Positions 7,472 through 25,240 of a stretch of DNA of 64,000 nt are shown one piece after another. Position numbers and translations under genes: made by a program. This DNA comes from Aquipluma nitroreducens (GTDB taxonomy: Bacteria; Bacteroidota; Bacteroidia; Bacteroidales; Prolixibacteraceae): NCBI RefSeq assembly GCF_009689585.1, contig NZ_AP018694.1:3959501-4023500 (forward strand), in the 5' to 3' direction. The stretch's first letter is position 1. Each line of letters starts with the position of its first letter. A model generated the notes under the pieces. That model was not told the DNA's origin. It saw nothing but the letters and a program-made list of their open reading frames with translations, and made no database searches.

Positions 7472-8044
7472 CTATAAGTTCTTCTTTCTAAGTTCGCTCA
7501 CATATTGTGGGGTGAGTCCCAGGTAGGAAGCAATCATATATTGCGGGACACGCTGAACAAATTCCGGAAAAGAGTTGGAAAAGAGTTGGTAGAATTCCTC
7601 TTTTGACATTTCGTACATGTATTTTTGACGGAGTTGCGAGGCAGCTAAAGCCCGCTGCATAACCATCCGGAAATAGCGTTCCATTTGGGGAATTTCCCGT
7701 AGCATCGTTTCAAAAGATGAAGAACTAATTGCCAGAATCTCTGATTTTTCGACGGTTTGAATGAAGTAAGGTGATGGTTTGTGATCGATAAAGCTGAAAT
7801 GATCTGCCATCCACCAATGTTCTAAAGCAAATTGAGTAATCTGTTCGTTCAATTTGTTGTCGATAAAATACATTCGTAAACAACCTTTCTCTACGAAATA
7901 AATGGATTGACAAACCTGATTTTCTTTTAGTAAAAATTCCTTTCGCTTTAACTTAAGCGGAGTAATGTATTTTATTAAAAACGCAATTGACTCGTCATCA
8001 ATTTCAACGTATTTGCGGATATGATTGATGAAATTCGGATACAT
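7472..8044 (-). CDS. Crp/Fnr family transcriptional regulator
   Basis: A 190-residue regulator. The N-terminal cyclic-nucleotide-binding-like barrel is recognisable from LKRKEFLLKENQVCQSIYFVEKGCLRMYF and ISSSSFETML. The C-terminal helix-turn-helix is seen in VQRVPQYMIASYLGLTPQYVSELRKK. There is no Cys cluster at the N-terminus for an Fe-S centre, so an Fnr-type oxygen sensor is unlikely. Ligand unknown. This compact Bacteroidota form is common next to small flavoproteins or transporters. It may control the PPOX-like gene 94 bases downstream, which is inference from neighbourhood only. Confidence 0.88.
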   Translation of the reverse strand: MYPNFINHIRKYVEIDDESIAFLIKYITPLKLKRKEFLLKENQVCQSIYFVEKGCLRMYFIDNKLNEQITQFALEHWWMADHFSFIDHKPSPYFIQTVEKSEILAISSSSFETMLREIPQMERYFRMVMQRALAASQLRQKYMYEMSKEEFYQLFSNSFPEFVQRVPQYMIASYLGLTPQYVSELRKKNL

Positions 8045-8140
8045 CCAAGTGTTTTTTAGAGCAGAAAGGTATCAAATAACTGGCAAAATCAATTATTCAG
8101 GTTTTACTGAATTAAAATGGCGACGATTAAATAGGAAAAA

Positions 8141-8887
8141 TTAATTCACTTCGTGTGTTCCATCGGGCAAGTATTTCACCGTTGGTGGAACTTTTTTTAG
8201 GTTAAACAGGTCGTAGCTTTTTTTTAAATCGGCCCAAAGGCTTATTTTATCCTTGTTTTTGCTGTATCCTGTAATTAACCGGTTGTAAGTTTTATCTTCC
8301 AGCTTGGTGGGGTAAATGGCAATGTCAATTTCTTCCTGACCGGCATTATAGGCTTCGATGCAATAGACGAAAAGTTCTTTTATTTTCTCGTCGGTAATGG
8401 CAATACAGCCCGACGATTCGCAATTGCCATGAATGTAAATGAGATTGCCCAAGTGCCCACGAACACCACGAATGCTGTCGGATGCATTCGGATAATTGAT
8501 TCGCATCGAAAGGTAATATTTACTGTACGGATTCAATTCGTTGATGTGGTAAAATCCTTCAGGAACCTGCAAGTCGTGCGAACGGCGTTTAGGGCCAATT
8601 TCTCCTGAAATTTCACAAATCGGGATTTCTTTGATGAGCGTATAAGTCGAGTCGCAAATGTTCTTTCCCCACACTTCAACCTTCTTTTCGGTTTTGAAGG
8701 CGCGCAGGTAAATTCGTAGGCTATCGCGCGACAACGAGCGTTCCGACAGGGTTTTAATAACGGCTTTTTCTTTTGAAGAGTATGCCTCCCTGACCCGGGT
8801 GTAATTCAACTGTTTTTCGCGGAAAGTGCCTGGTGACGTTTCAAACAGCAAGGAAATCAGGGTGAAAATGATTAATATAAATCTCAT
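8141..8887 (-). CDS. L,D-transpeptidase (YkuD/YafK-type) family protein, exported
   Basis: A 248-residue periplasmic protein. Residues 1-19 form a signal peptide (MRFILIIFTLISLLFETSPG). The YkuD-type catalytic motif is clear: IYIHGNCESSGCIAI, with His in HG and the nucleophile Cys in GC. Upstream are VPEGFYHINELNPYSKYYLSMRI elements typical of the YafK/ErfK_YbiS_YhnG subgroup. Such enzymes cross-link or release proteins from peptidoglycan. The C-terminal 60 residues beyond the domain are uncharacterised. Monocistronic, with AT-rich sequence on both sides. Confidence 0.88.
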   Translation of the reverse strand: MRFILIIFTLISLLFETSPGTFREKQLNYTRVREAYSSKEKAVIKTLSERSLSRDSLRIYLRAFKTEKKVEVWGKNICDSTYTLIKEIPICEISGEIGPKRRSHDLQVPEGFYHINELNPYSKYYLSMRINYPNASDSIRGVRGHLGNLIYIHGNCESSGCIAITDEKIKELFVYCIEAYNAGQEEIDIAIYPTKLEDKTYNRLITGYSKNKDKISLWADLKKSYDLFNLKKVPPTVKYLPDGTHEVN

Positions 8888-20801: not shown

Positions 20802-21692
20802 TTAAGCAGTTTTTTTAACCCCTTTTCGGCTGATGAGGTAAACACCCGTCAGGATTAAACCCATGCAAGCCAGGTGAAGTAAGGTTATTTTTTCGCCGTC
20901 GAGCACACCCCACATAATTGCAAAAATGGGGATGATGTAGGTAACCGATGAGGCTGCTACTGCCGACGAGTGACGAATCAGACTATTCATCAGCAACATA
21001 GCAAGAGCAGTACCAACAATTCCAAGTGTGGCAAGAGCCAGTAAATGAACAGGCCACGACGGATTGGCAGCCACTGCCTGTAAATTGGTAGTGAACAAAT
21101 ATGCCAGTGCTACCGGACCAATAAATAAAAAGGATAACGAAGTAACCTGAATCCCGGAAAGATGTGGCAATTTAGCTTTAATCTGATTGATGCTGATGGC
21201 ATAAAAACAGGTGGCCAGTACAATGTAGAACGCATAACTGTTAACCGTTCCCAGATGAAAACCGTCTCCGGCAAGGATTAGTCCGGTTGCGCCAGCCAGT
21301 CCAAGCGACAACCCAAGCACCTGCAACCAGCGGAAACCCGTTTTGTGAAAGAGCATCCCCACAATTAAAGTGAATACCGGGGTGAGCGAATTAAGCATAC
21401 CGGCCAGCGAACTGTCAATTTGCGTTTCGGCTTTCATAAACAGGAAGGCTGGAAAGAAACTACCGATGAAACCCGCAATCAGCAAGCTTTTTAAATCTTC
21501 TTTCCTGATGCTTTTTAAGTTGCGGATCGATAATGGAAGCAGTGCCAGCGAAGCCAGTAAGATGCGCAGCGCACCTGCCTGCTCGGGGCTGAAACTCTTT
21601 AGTCCGATTTTCATCAGAATAAACGAACTGCCCCAGATAAAGGCCAGGACCATCAAAATGGTCATTTGAAATCCGCGTTTTTCCCAAACCAT
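20802..21692 (-). CDS. EamA/DMT-family permease
   Basis: A 296-residue drug/metabolite transporter with about ten hydrophobic helices in two homologous EamA halves. The first begins LAFIWGSSFILMKIGL, and the second spans YAFYIVLATCFYAISINQIKAKL to the C-terminus, ending YIIPIFAIMWGVLDGEKITLLHLACMGLILTGVYLIS. The C-terminal basic tail SRKGVKK is cytoplasmic. Substrate unknown; members export amino acids, nucleotides or other metabolites. It is convergent with the rhodanese-thioredoxin gene. A downstream ATG at 21665 is an alternative start. Confidence 0.9.
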   Translation of the reverse strand: MVWEKRGFQMTILMVLAFIWGSSFILMKIGLKSFSPEQAGALRILLASLALLPLSIRNLKSIRKEDLKSLLIAGFIGSFFPAFLFMKAETQIDSSLAGMLNSLTPVFTLIVGMLFHKTGFRWLQVLGLSLGLAGATGLILAGDGFHLGTVNSYAFYIVLATCFYAISINQIKAKLPHLSGIQVTSLSFLFIGPVALAYLFTTNLQAVAANPSWPVHLLALATLGIVGTALAMLLMNSLIRHSSAVAASSVTYIIPIFAIMWGVLDGEKITLLHLACMGLILTGVYLISRKGVKKTA

Positions 21693-21964
21693 AAAGTGAA
21701 ATTTTTGAGGGCGGAAAGATAGGAGAAAAGTACGGGTAGAGAAAGCCTTATTTTACTTGAATTAACCTCAGTGGCATAGCAGGTGAATTGGCTACAAACC
21801 TTGTTTGCATTTTCATTTCTTCAAAATTGCATGACTGATTTTTTGCATCTGTTATAAAAAATGGGTTCGTACTGCTTAATAATCAAGTATTCTGTTGTAA
21901 ATTGGTAACAATTAAATCCGTTTTGATGAATTACTGAATTGACTAATTTTTAAAAGTAATCAGC

Positions 21965-22726
21965 ATGACTTCAACCAACGATAACGACGAGCTTTTACTC
22001 CAGATTCGGGCTTTTAAATCCGGCAAAGCCGATAGTCCCAGCGTACCAGTTAATGTGATTGTTCAGGAAGCCGACGACCTGTATCTTTGGTGTCAGGACG
22101 ATCAGGAACAACTAATTTTGGCAGGACTCGACTGGAATCAAGTTTCTCTTATTCCCGTTTGTGCCAAAATATGCCGCGAATTTCAGTCGCAGTGGCTTAA
22201 AAATTATAAATCGACTGATAAGGTTAAACTGGAATGGGACACCAAATCACCAGAAGCGCTGAACCTGCGCAGTGAATTGCTGCATGATTTTGGGTTTGCT
22301 TTCCGCAAGGACAAACAATTGCTTGCCCAAATAAAAGAAATAGCCCAGAAGCAAAGCCGTATCAGCTTGGTCCAGAGCCTGAATGATCTTTCCGAATTTG
22401 GGCGCGGACACATGGACTTGCTTGAGTCCATTAACTTTGACCCGTTGAAACTTGAACGAGCAGCCCGACTGGTTCCTGAAATGGCTGATCTGATAGCAAG
22501 AATAGAACGCAACAAAAAACTAAGCGACGAATCCAAAATAATGCGCGACCAGACTTATGCCTTCCTGAAACAATTGGTTGATGAAGTGCGAGTGTGCGGT
22601 AAATATAAATTCAGGGAGAATCCGGAACGACTGGCGGGTTACCTCAGCGATTACTGGAAAAGCAGAAACTCAGTCCGGGGGAAAAAATCATCACCAGAGG
22701 ACACGCGGAAAACAGTCAAAAAATGA
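21965..22726 (+). CDS. Conserved-looking protein of unknown function
   Basis: I do not recognise this 253-residue protein. It is soluble, with no signal peptide or membrane helix, and rich in charged helices. Residues 1-75 look alpha/beta (VIVQEADDLYLWCQDDQEQLILAGLDW). Residues 95-220 are long helices with regular hydrophobic spacing (FAFRKDKQLLAQIKEIAQKQ, ADLIARIERNKKLSDE). The C-terminus is very basic (RNSVRGKKSS...TRKTVKK), compatible with nucleic-acid binding. It lies 78 bases before a phased CTAG array, so a DNA-binding role at that array is a testable guess. GC content and codon use resemble the core genes more than the HNH operon does. Confidence 0.7.
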   Translation: MTSTNDNDELLLQIRAFKSGKADSPSVPVNVIVQEADDLYLWCQDDQEQLILAGLDWNQVSLIPVCAKICREFQSQWLKNYKSTDKVKLEWDTKSPEALNLRSELLHDFGFAFRKDKQLLAQIKEIAQKQSRISLVQSLNDLSEFGRGHMDLLESINFDPLKLERAARLVPEMADLIARIERNKKLSDESKIMRDQTYAFLKQLVDEVRVCGKYKFRENPERLAGYLSDYWKSRNSVRGKKSSPEDTRKTVKK

Positions 22727-22803
22727 GAATCTGTTTATTTCCGCTCCTGAAATATGACTGTCCGGGTTAAGAAATAATTTCCATTGTAGTAAAAATCAAT
22801 TAT

Positions 22804-23003
22804 CTAGTCGATATTTTTAATCATCTAGTTATAATTTATTATGTCTAGTCTAATTATTTTATTGTCTGGTTTAATTTTTAATATACCTTGTTTGACTAGG
22901 CATTCCAGAAGTCAGGCTAGTTATATGAAAAAGATGACTAGATCATTTAAATGATAACAAGAAATATCAAATAGTTTACTAGGCTTATAAAAAGTATGAC
23001 TAG
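22804..23003. repeat. Dyad-symmetric, 21-bp-phased CTAG array
   Basis: CTAG tetramers, usually rare in bacterial DNA, start at 22804, 22825, 22845, (CTGG 22866), 22896, 22917, 22938, (CAAG 22958), 22979 and 23000. Steps are 21, 20, 21, then 30 across the centre, then 21, 21, 20, 21, 21. Left units read TCTAGT(C/T), right units mostly GACTAG or TACTAG, that is, inverted. Each of the four left sites pairs with a right site around one centre at 22882-22883. Spacers are AT-rich and poorly conserved. The step equals two DNA turns, so all sites face one side of the helix. Function unknown. Confidence 0.8.
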
Positions 23004-23126
23004 CTATATTAAAACTAAATTTTGACACGGAAGAGAAGCCGAATCAGTATGCGGATATTGTGGGGATCAGCAAATGGAATTGCAGCGGACAGGCAATAAA
23101 AAACAACGATGTTGCAGGGGAGGTGG
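23004..23126. other. Non-coding stretch after the CTAG array
   Basis: A frame stays open across about 23024-23140, but it has no start codon, no recognised family and no promoter. It may be a gene remnant. Nothing else was seen. Confidence 0.3.
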
Positions 23127-23519
23127 CTAATCCAACTTCAATTCAGTTCTTGCTCCGCATTTCGGGCAAGTCGTTGGCTGATTTCCCATGAGATAAATAT
23201 CGAAATTCTTCATTTCTTCTAGTTTTGCTAGAAACGAATTGATTGATTCCATTTTCTTTTTTGGATTATCAATCTTATCAAGCATTTCTATGGAGTCGAA
23301 TTCATACCACGAATAATCATCCTCATATCGATTAGATTTAAACTTTTTAATACCCAAACAATCTGGGTAGAAAAATTCATGTGAGAAAAGATGTAGCTGA
23401 ATATTATACTCTATTACTTCGATGGAAAGCTGATCTGGATTTGTGAATATCTTACTTCCGAACTTTTTGTAGTTTCCTGAATCGCGGTACAGATAATTAA
23501 AACGGATAAACTCATTCAT
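23127..23519 (-). CDS. Unknown protein with C-terminal CPxCG zinc knuckle
   Basis: A 130-residue protein from ATG 23519; an upstream in-frame TTG at 23534 would add five residues. Not recognised as a named family. The first 90 residues are aromatic- and charge-rich (FIRFNYLYRDSGNYKKFG, YEDDYSWYEFDSIEML). The C-terminus has a single CPKCGARTELKLD, half a zinc ribbon, which might dimerise around zinc or be a ribbon remnant. It lies 74 bases downstream of an HNH endonuclease gene on the same strand and is equally AT-rich. The two are probably co-transcribed and co-inherited. Confidence 0.65.
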   Translation of the reverse strand: MNEFIRFNYLYRDSGNYKKFGSKIFTNPDQLSIEVIEYNIQLHLFSHEFFYPDCLGIKKFKSNRYEDDYSWYEFDSIEMLDKIDNPKKKMESINSFLAKLEEMKNFDIYLMGNQPTTCPKCGARTELKLD

Positions 23520-23593
23520 GGCTTTTCTAGCCAAAGAAAGGTAGTATAGAAATGAAAGTCAACGGACTATGAGTCACGTTTTAGTTTTTCTAA

Positions 23594-24496
23594 TTATACT
23601 GCGTTTTTGAAATTTGTATACCTAATATGCAGCCAATCTCTATTAGGCCTTGAGGTCACAGATTTTGGTAATATTAACTTATTGCCATGCATTTGCTGAA
23701 TCCCAAATTTTAGCATTGGACCATCAATTTCGTTCAGTATATCTTCCCTGACATGGATAAGATAGTCTGGCGTAATACCTATAATATTATTATCAAACGC
23801 TGCATGATGAATTTTACACAGAGAAATTCCATTGGTGACAGCAGCTCTACCCAAGCTACTATCCTCTATTATATGAGCAGCATCCAATAATTCTCTATGT
23901 TTTAACGCACAAATCGCGCAGTGGTCTCTATAGGCATTTAATACCATTTCTCTAAAAGTCGATTGATGTAACCTCTGAATCATTTGTCTTGTGGCATATC
24001 TACGCTCAACTTCATTTGGCTCATTCACCGCATCGAAATCGTTATAAATAGGATAAGATTTTGCATCAGCTTCAACAATAAAACTAAGATTTTGTATATC
24101 ATCCTCAACAATAAACACAGGCCAATTTAGCAGATACTTACCTTTCGAAACCTCGTGCATGTAAATAAGTGGAACTTTATTTCTCATACATTCTCTGAGA
24201 CCTACATTAACCCAATCATTTGGATTATTCCCCTTATACCTATATTTAATTCTACTATCAGAAATAAATTCATCATCATAAATACTTTCTGCTCTGGACT
24301 TTATTGTAATTGGATATTGCATCTGTTTTGGTTTCCAAATTCCTTGCTGACCAGAGAGGACAACTTGTTCGTTATTGAAATAAAAGTCATTAGCCAAGAC
24401 TTTTGTCGGAAATACAGAATCAGGATATTGAGGAAGCAAAGAATTTAACCAGTCAAAAACTGACATTCGAATTTTAAGGCTTTTTAAATCTTCCAT
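23594..24496 (-). CDS. HNH endonuclease, putative restriction-type (COG3440-like)
   Basis: A 300-residue protein. The HNH fold is at residues about 195-250: CAICALKHRELLDAAHII, then GISLCKIHHAAFDNN. It has two Cys before and one after, and the His residues of AAHII and KIHH are at the nuclease metal site. The N-terminal 190 residues form a substrate-recognition-like region resembling the PUA/SRA-type halves of predicted restriction endonucleases of this family. That part of the assignment is tentative. No methyltransferase is adjacent, so modified-DNA (type IV) restriction or another anti-mobile-element role is more likely than a classical restriction-modification pair. Markedly AT-rich. Confidence 0.82.
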   Translation of the reverse strand: MEDLKSLKIRMSVFDWLNSLLPQYPDSVFPTKVLANDFYFNNEQVVLSGQQGIWKPKQMQYPITIKSRAESIYDDEFISDSRIKYRYKGNNPNDWVNVGLRECMRNKVPLIYMHEVSKGKYLLNWPVFIVEDDIQNLSFIVEADAKSYPIYNDFDAVNEPNEVERRYATRQMIQRLHQSTFREMVLNAYRDHCAICALKHRELLDAAHIIEDSSLGRAAVTNGISLCKIHHAAFDNNIIGITPDYLIHVREDILNEIDGPMLKFGIQQMHGNKLILPKSVTSRPNRDWLHIRYTNFKNAV

Positions 24497-24697
24497 GTTA
24501 CTATTTGATTAGGCTTATGGCTAGTTTCTTAGATAAACAAATGTAGTTAATCTCAATTCGTTATTGTACTCAAAATACATTAATAATCATATTTTTTCTA
24601 AATGTAGGTAGAATGTAAATTATGTTGTAGCTCCGTATTTCTTTGGTGTGTACATCGGTCATGCCGGTAAAGTTAGTGAATACCCGAAATTTCAGGC
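24497..24697. other. AT-rich upstream region of the HNH operon
   Basis: About 200 bases of AT-rich sequence holding the presumed promoter of the HNH gene. No gene, repeat or perfect promoter consensus was found. Confidence 0.3.
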
Positions 24698-24702
24698 AAA
24701 AA

Positions 24703-24737
24703 AAATACCGGATACGATTTGGTTATCCGGTATTTTA
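24703..24737 (-). terminator. Terminator of the small secreted protein gene
   Basis: AAATACCGGATA-...-TATCCGGTATTT is a 12-bp perfect stem, flanked by an A-run on the left and T-run on the right on the plus strand. It can act in both directions. It lies 36 bases past the stop of the minus-strand gene. Confidence 0.8.
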
Positions 24738-24772
24738 AGAGCTGTTAAAAGCTCTGTTGGCAATGGGCTGGT

Positions 24773-25240
24773 TTATTGTTTGTCGAGCAGGTAGGTTTCC
24801 GACATTTCGCCCATCGACGATGCTGCATTCAGTCCCACCTTCAGGTTGTTTTCAGCCATCTGGAAAACTTCTTTCATAGTTGCTTCGCCCCCGTCCTGTG
24901 CTGGCATTTTGCTCGAAATGGTCAGCGTTTGCCCGTCTTCCGACCAAACCGCGGTTGATGTTTTCTTGCTGTTCATCCATCCCACATTTACGCATTCCTT
25001 TCCATCGAGACTAAATTTGTCTTTGGTTACGTAATCCGTGCCCTGAAAATTACCATACTTTTCCACCACGAGAGTGTCCGCTGTTTGGGTTACAATCATT
25101 TGGATTGGAGCCAGGCTGAACTGTTCGAACAGGGTGCTTTTTTCGTTGTTCAGTTTCCAGGTTCCCGAAAAATTAATTCCCTCGCCCATGCTAGTCAGGG
25201 TGAGCATTGAAAGAGCCAATAAGTAAAAGAGTTTTTTCAT
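24773..25240 (-). CDS. Small secreted lipocalin-like protein of unknown function
   Basis: A 155-residue exported protein. The signal peptide is MKKLFYLLALSMLTLTSMGEG, and NFSGTWKLNNEKSTL starts the mature part. The alternating beta-strand pattern (VTQTADTLVVEKYG, STAVWSEDGQTLTISSKM) with the SGTWKLN opening is shared with many uncharacterised Bacteroidota proteins with a predicted lipocalin or beta-barrel fold. No lipobox Cys. Ligand unknown. Monocistronic between two AT-rich gaps with a clear terminator. Confidence 0.7.
   Translation of the reverse strand: MKKLFYLLALSMLTLTSMGEGINFSGTWKLNNEKSTLFEQFSLAPIQMIVTQTADTLVVEKYGNFQGTDYVTKDKFSLDGKECVNVGWMNSKKTSTAVWSEDGQTLTISSKMPAQDGGEATMKEVFQMAENNLKVGLNAASSMGEMSETYLLDKQ

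Follow-up and report, generated by a model that had tools for sequence, protein, structure and literature searches.

The 64,000-nucleotide stretch of the Aquipluma nitroreducens chromosome analyzed here (NZ_AP018694.1, positions 3,959,501 to 4,023,500; hereafter, the window) contains a gene for a 253-residue protein followed by an intergenic array of phased CTAG tetramers, and comparison with related loci suggests that the protein is a DNA-binder and the array its sites. As can be seen in Table 1, the array consists of 11 units, eight of them exact CTAG tetramers, repeated at steps of 20 to 21 base pairs (bp) and split into mirrored arms, one of five units and one of six. An earlier note on this DNA had described such tetramers and near-units at these steps, and all eight exact copies are indeed where it placed them, confirming that the phasing is real. 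The mirror symmetry that it proposed also stands, but the center that it gave (22882.5) is half a unit off, a displacement that arises because the array is periodic. Once the CTTG at 22887 is counted as a unit, a better dyad lies at 22893.0, about which all five left units have a partner on the right (22887/22896, 22866/22917, 22845/22938, 22825/22958, and 22804/22979), the sixth right unit, at 23000, remaining unpaired. The orientation of each arm is given by the flanks of the tetramer, CTAGTC on the left and GACTAG on the right. The inner step at the dyad is 9 bp; in most two-armed relatives it is about 7 to 12 bp, depending on the hexamer, and in a few about 30 (judged by eye).

Table 1. 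Features at the array locus, in window coordinates
Feature	Position	Strand	Basis
Gene of the 253-residue all-helical protein, founder of the family studied	21965..22726	+	Open reading frame
Hypervariable basic C-terminal tail after conserved Tyr226 (residues 227-253)	22643..22723	+	Tail similarity tracks the core motif
Tail residue 9 (Asn235)	22667-22669	+	Comparison of residue 9 with the core base
Left arm, five units, CTAGTC-like (outward reading GACTAG)	22804..22892	-	CTAG at 22804, 22825, 22845; CTGG at 22866; CTTG at 22887
Dyad center	22893..22893	.	All five left units mirrored by right units about 22893.0
Right arm, six units, GACTAG-like	22894..23003	+	CTAG at 22896, 22917, 22938, 22979, 23000; CAAG at 22958
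Gene B, 135 codons, convergent neighbor, probably incidental	23127..23534	-	Open reading frame
HNH_2 nuclease-like gene, convergent neighbor, probably incidental	23594..24496	-	

The scarcity of CTAG and its local excess, both pointed out earlier, are borne out by counting. CTAG occurs 30 times in the window, against 96.4 expected from shuffles, and its density in the array is far above that of the rest: eight copies in 200 bp have a Poisson probability of 1.2e-14 if the density found outside the array is taken, and of 1.3e-9 if that of the shuffles is. Across the organism's own genome (5,712,279 bases), the pattern CTAGN16-17CTAGN16-17CTAG is present in two places, one per arm of the window array, and a reversed control pattern of the phased CTAG triplet in one. 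The nearest relative carrying the gene (L136; loci are numbered with an L throughout), whose protein is 76% identical to that of the window, also has the array, with some cores altered. Between these two arrays, identity is 80% in the core columns against 58% in the spacers, and slid cores give a mean of 61% and a maximum of 70%.

The protein matches no Pfam family at E≤1 and has no PADLOC match at E≤0.01. Its AlphaFold2 model, built with 32 sequences, displays helices only, two of which are 50 and 55 residues long, with a mean predicted local distance difference test score (pLDDT) of 88.8 and values below 50 for residues 243 to 253. No strands, ribbon-helix-helix or winged helix are seen in this predicted structure, and a Foldseek search with it returned no match at E≤0.001. 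The gene is a member of a helical family without a name, which is distributed patchily within Bacteroidota and turns up sporadically in other phyla. Profile relatives are present in 49 of the 140 genomes of the source's taxonomic family, with up to nine matches per genome, in 16 of 393 genomes drawn from the order and, among 395 drawn from the class, in the organism's own genome alone. A scan of species genomes yielded 35 loci, mostly in Prolixibacteraceae and related Bacteroidota, the named genera being Draconibacterium, Mangrovibacterium, Maribellus, Mariniphaga, Tangfeifania, Marinifilum, Ancylomarina, and Labilibaculum; the gene is found in metagenome-assembled genomes (MAGs) as well. Outside Bacteroidota, MAGs whose assignments may be wrong contributed loci from Aminicenantes (four), Deltaproteobacteria (three), and KSB1, Neomarinimicrobiota, and Chitinispirillaceae (one each). 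No relative was found in the viral contigs searched, nor in plasmids or phages (one query each). Altogether, 134 loci carry the gene, of which 126 distinct ones were kept.

Phased arrays accompany this gene wherever it is found, with few exceptions. Calling an array phased when a flank exceeded all 99 dinucleotide shuffles, we detected a 20- to 21-bp array in 113 of 125 downstream flanks, in 11 of 123 upstream flanks and on either side in 114 of the 126 loci, as compared with 2 of 195 control stretches taken from the same contigs more than about 2.6 kilobases from the gene. The 12 loci giving no signal are L030, L049, L051, L063, L064, L072, L075, L121, L123, L126, L134, and L135. When word pairs are counted over 123 distinct loci, the 450 bp following the gene give sharp peaks at 20 bp (869 pairs) and 21 bp (1727), with harmonics at 40 to 42 and 60 to 63 bp, against some 40 to 155 pairs at distances off the harmonics; on the upstream side the excess at 21 bp is slight (228 versus about 100). 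Where four or more exact units are present (76 loci), the steps are 21 bp (396), 20 bp (187), 22 bp (15), and 19 bp (4), the weighted mean being 20.73 and the means of individual loci running from about 20.0 to 21.3. An A/T-rich patch (74%) lies about 10 bp, or about one turn, from the center of the core. Arrays with two mirrored arms are frequent (L044, L045, L081, L131, and others), and arrays with a single arm, the longest of 21 units (L027), occur as well. Arrays are also found downstream of the gene in MAGs assigned to other phyla, with 8 exact units in L168 (KSB1), 15 in L149 (Aminicenantes), and 9 in L151 (Deltaproteobacteria). Close relatives thus have phased arrays, although the core motif is often a different one, and the suggestion of the earlier note, that repeated binding sites lie along one side of the helix and belong with the neighboring gene, is the best-supported reading of the sequences from the 126 loci. 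Gene fragments (L016 to L018) were counted for array presence and left out of the motif, tail and residue-9 analyses. In L017 and L018 (G030), the copies of the family gene are broken and phased arrays still adjoin them, from which it follows that arrays can outlast the gene.

The repeated word itself is a property of the locus. In addition to CTAG, we found cores such as TAACTC, AACAGG, GCAGGA, CCCGGG, CCATGG, TACTCG, TATCCG, GATGGG, TGCGGA, CGAAGG, TGCGAG, and GAGAAC, and since many relatives have a different core, CTAG is private to the lineage of the window. For 70 loci, those having a full-length protein and a sufficient number of units, core similarity follows protein identity (Mantel 0.32, reached by 0 of 999 permutations). 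Over all 2,415 pairs of these loci, the partial correlation with the core is 0.159 for the tail given the body (reached by 1 of 999 permutations) and 0.208 for the body given the tail (0 of 999). Among the 263 close pairs, whose bodies are more than 60% identical, the tail given the body has a partial correlation of 0.617 and the body given the tail one of -0.073, that is, the body adds nothing. In these pairs, 20-column windows ending before the tail reach at most 0.157, and the three over the tail give 0.243, 0.478, and 0.485. Related-locus pairs are not independent, and these correlations therefore carry no simple P value. Close pairs have a core in common in 28 of 29 cases when the similarity of their tails is at least 0.7 and in 0 of 6 when their tails are unlike. 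L033 and L032 amount to a natural swap, since they are 91% identical and have unlike tails, with AACAGG and TGCAAA as their respective cores, and L122 and L124 are alike both in tail and in core.

Within the class of arrays built on CAGG, one residue of the tail goes with one base. Thirty loci have at least five in-phase CAGG, of which 29 were counted, L031, with its two-residue tail, being left out; L032 is included even though the call for its core, TGCAAA, was made on the other strand. When position 9 of the tail is Asn, the majority base preceding CAGG is A in 13 of 14 loci and G in the other, and when it is not Asn, the base is G in 14 of 15 (8 of 8 with His, 4 of 5 with Lys, 2 of 2 with Arg) and A in one. 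The corresponding Fisher value of 2.9e-6 takes no account of kinship. A quick tree built from the bodies alone, with the tails removed, requires at least 11 changes of the base and at least 10 of residue 9. Five independent pairs on well-supported branches gave, over random pairings, a mean of 4.6 differing in the same way, 0.0 in the opposite way and 0.3 with no difference, for a median sign-test p of 0.0625. The rule was found in the same data and has few independent checks, of which L168 is the sole one in the CAGG class; this KSB1 MAG locus, with a tail ending in RRHR, has G in 8 of 8 in-phase CAGG, as the rule predicts. In the window, Asn235 goes together with an A before the C of the outward core GACTAG, in agreement with the rule and outside the count. 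In the TGCGAG class, Asp9 is found with C in L129 to L131 and again in L274 (core CCTCGC), and Asn9 is found with A in L132 but with G in L127 and L128. These last two misfit a strict pairing of Asn with A, and the rule is therefore not strict. Contacts of Asn with A, and of His, Lys or Arg with G, are those expected of major-groove readout.

Similar arrays accompany other proteins. NF052641, the model of the PQLLE family protein, scores the window protein at 19.3 bits (E 0.00072), under its curated cut-off of 80, and matches 33 of 42 members of the window family at E≤1 (best 7e-8). Aligned with hhalign to a PQLLE profile made of 12 sequences found with that model, some of them under its cut-off, the window family gives a probability of 95.6 (E 1.3e-8, 200 columns), and a third family, of 235 residues, a profile-profile probability of 99.1 (E 2e-18). 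To judge by these sequence profiles, PQLLE is homologous to both families, distantly to that of the window and clearly to that of 235 residues. In 17 loci found with the PQLLE model, eight of them above the family cut-off, word pairs 21 bp apart number 201, versus 19 per distance; these arrays lie mainly upstream with a step of 21 bp, in contrast to the window family, in which they lie downstream with steps of 20 to 21 bp. The literature that we searched makes no mention of PQLLE. In the 235-residue family (30 loci), there are 564 pairs at 21 bp versus 25 upstream, and 204 versus 20 downstream, the latter largely from L225 and L229. A family of 117 residues (23 loci) has downstream arrays (472 versus 12) and shows no detectable homology. 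The 235- and 117-residue families were chosen because arrays had appeared beside their query copies. EamA genes taken as a control (14 loci) gave 26 pairs at 21 bp versus 13 upstream and 14 versus 9 downstream. The 21-bp arrays of related families (L208 6000-6434; L212 5600-5881) sit in open frames of seven-residue repeats that automatic gene calling may take for protein genes.

Phasing, the pairing of gene and array, and the covariation of tail and core are features of the sequences themselves; that the protein binds its own array is, we infer, highly probable. The whole reading, in which the 253-residue protein is a sequence-specific binder of double-stranded DNA, its own array provides the sites and its tail reads the core, seems to us likely. 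The unit would be about 21 bp, or two helical turns, and would comprise a GC-richer core with the A/T-rich patch about one turn away. Such a unit allows protomers to line up, and they would sit side by side on one helix face, presumably oligomerizing on the array; in many members, the window included, two runs of protomers would point in opposite directions from a central dyad. The core would be read by the hypervariable C-terminal helix and the basic tail, whose position 9 (Asn235 in the window) would read one base, A if Asn and G if His, Lys or Arg. Since tail and array change together, each locus would have its own protein-site pair. What the complex does is a more tentative matter. By analogy with iterons and plasmid centromeres, it could be self-contained and control its own locus, by restricting its own expression, by pairing or anchoring DNA, or by both, which is the role that we favor, albeit with more doubt than confidence; it might also be architectural or act against other elements.

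The earlier note had listed an operator array among its options, and control of a neighboring gene, for example the HNH operon, would suit the intergenic, A/T-rich position. Promoter-like matches number 8 versus 5.4 (SD 2.1) in shuffles, which is no clear excess, and the statement that the array precedes the HNH operon is misleading, because that operon lies on the other strand and runs toward the array. Of 71 loci, 35 have a convergent next gene, 31 a codirectional one and 5 none near, a mixture which indicates that the array does not belong to the promoter of a fixed neighbor. An HNH_2-type gene stands beside only 5 of the 96 loci examined (L088, L097, L100, and L158 among the loci named), and the constant partner of the array is the protein gene itself, which makes this explanation very unlikely. 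It is just as unlikely that the array is the end or attachment site of a mobile element, the protein acting as an accessory recombination factor. The distribution is patchy and different gene-array modules occupy one chromosomal spot in relatives, as would be expected, but each gene has one array rather than paired ends, no recombinase was recognized by eye in the 25 largest neighbor clusters (96 loci), and the searches of viral contigs, plasmids and phages (one query each for the latter two) were all negative.

Slippage beside a fast-moving gene could have left a functionless minisatellite, and two-unit periodicities of 41 bp together with the strict 21-bp arrays of related families do suggest expansion by duplication. 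Such a repeat has no call, however, for cores more conserved than spacers between diverged loci, a difference visible in further alignments as well, for mirrored arms, for a motif that covaries with the protein tail or for a place beside the family gene in 113 of 125 loci, and we give this account little credence. The array might instead work once transcribed, the protein binding repeated RNA motifs or a long hairpin, somewhat like the RNAs of type III toxin-antitoxin systems. The array usually lies downstream of the gene, that of the window folds better than its shuffles (z -3.63, matched by 0 of 200), and 33 two-armed arrays have a mean folding z of -4.9. Mirrored arms, however, must fold as RNA by construction, and 26 one-armed arrays on average show no excess folding (mean z +0.35, single ones down to -3.7). 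Moreover, the RNA of a two-armed array would offer one protein two different sequences, steps alternate between 20 and 21 bp, a period that fits B-form DNA, arrays lie mainly upstream in the PQLLE relatives, and there is no Rfam match at the gathering score. An RNA-level function is thus improbable. A type III toxin-antitoxin system was set aside as well, in view of the downstream position of the arrays in the window family, the one-armed arrays lacking excess structure and the negative Rfam result.

Binding of the protein to its own array would be reminiscent of several known systems. In the iteron arrays of plasmid replicons, such as P1 incA beside repA, sites about two helical turns apart lie by the gene of their binder. 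The window family resembles them in having sites at about this spacing beside the gene, and differs in being chromosomal, with several copies in some genomes, no plasmid match (one query) and mirrored arms. We rejected a Rep initiator by sequence, since no Rep-type family was matched by the window protein or was among 25 of the 28 Pfam families listed for 42 members. Plasmid centromeres bound by ParR, omega or TubR consist of phased direct and inverted short sites coated by a small oligomeric protein; in contrast to those proteins, the predicted structure of the window protein is made of helices only. No partition motor (ParA, ParM, TubZ) was recognized by eye in the 25 largest clusters of open reading frames from 96 loci, one ATPase-like cluster occurring in 3 loci, and neither fold nor neighbors point to a partition adaptor, which the protein may nonetheless be. 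The TAACTGA heptamer repeats of Beggiatoaceae, found also in five Bacteroidetes, are likewise short and intergenic (PMC4679880). They are, however, contiguous repeats of one heptamer at many places, and the part of that report cited here names no partner gene (PMC4679880). An array of the CRISPR (clustered regularly interspaced short palindromic repeats) or other guide type was discarded, as the conserved core is only about 6 bp of a 21-bp unit and the window protein has no PADLOC match.

The gene-array pairs point to an undescribed family of bacterial DNA-binding modules. We found no description of such modules in the literature searched, which mostly excluded subscription papers, so that this is weak evidence of novelty. 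A wider generalization is plausible, although we stop just short of favoring it: a class of chromosomal one-gene modules in which at least two unrelated kinds of helical protein have a private phased array as their address, one branch using a code between tail residue and base (Asn-A, His/Lys/Arg-G, perhaps Asp-C) that is re-spelled together with the array. If true, these modules would be natural, re-addressable DNA-coating systems. An unannotated protein superfamily would gain a testable function, namely sequence-specific assembly on its own DNA, and the recognition code would be directly testable on dozens of natural protein-array pairs, some of them close pairs differing mostly in tail and core. 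This would also account for one kind of phased intergenic repeat in Bacteroidota, which is easily overlooked or taken for other repeat arrays.

As for the surroundings of the array, the interval between the EamA gene and a lipocalin-like gene (21692-24773 in the window; also L207, L208, and L212) is a variable spot in the genus. In relatives it holds modules of the 235-residue type (L207, L212) or of the 117-residue type (L208), as well as different HNH-like genes and a 659-residue ATPase-like gene (L208). Gene B is also found at the equivalent spot in relatives bearing other array modules, and the recurrence of HNH_2 genes beside array modules perhaps reflects a shared insertion spot. Some members of the short-tailed branch of the window family (L082, L084, L086, L092, L095, L096, L098, which is the same place as L163, and L159) adjoin what look by eye like nucleotide-sugar or polysaccharide genes, two recurrent epimerase-like clusters being among their neighbors. 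In L212, the EamA/lipocalin-like spot also contains a two-gene pair (7673-8373) that looks HigBA-like by eye.
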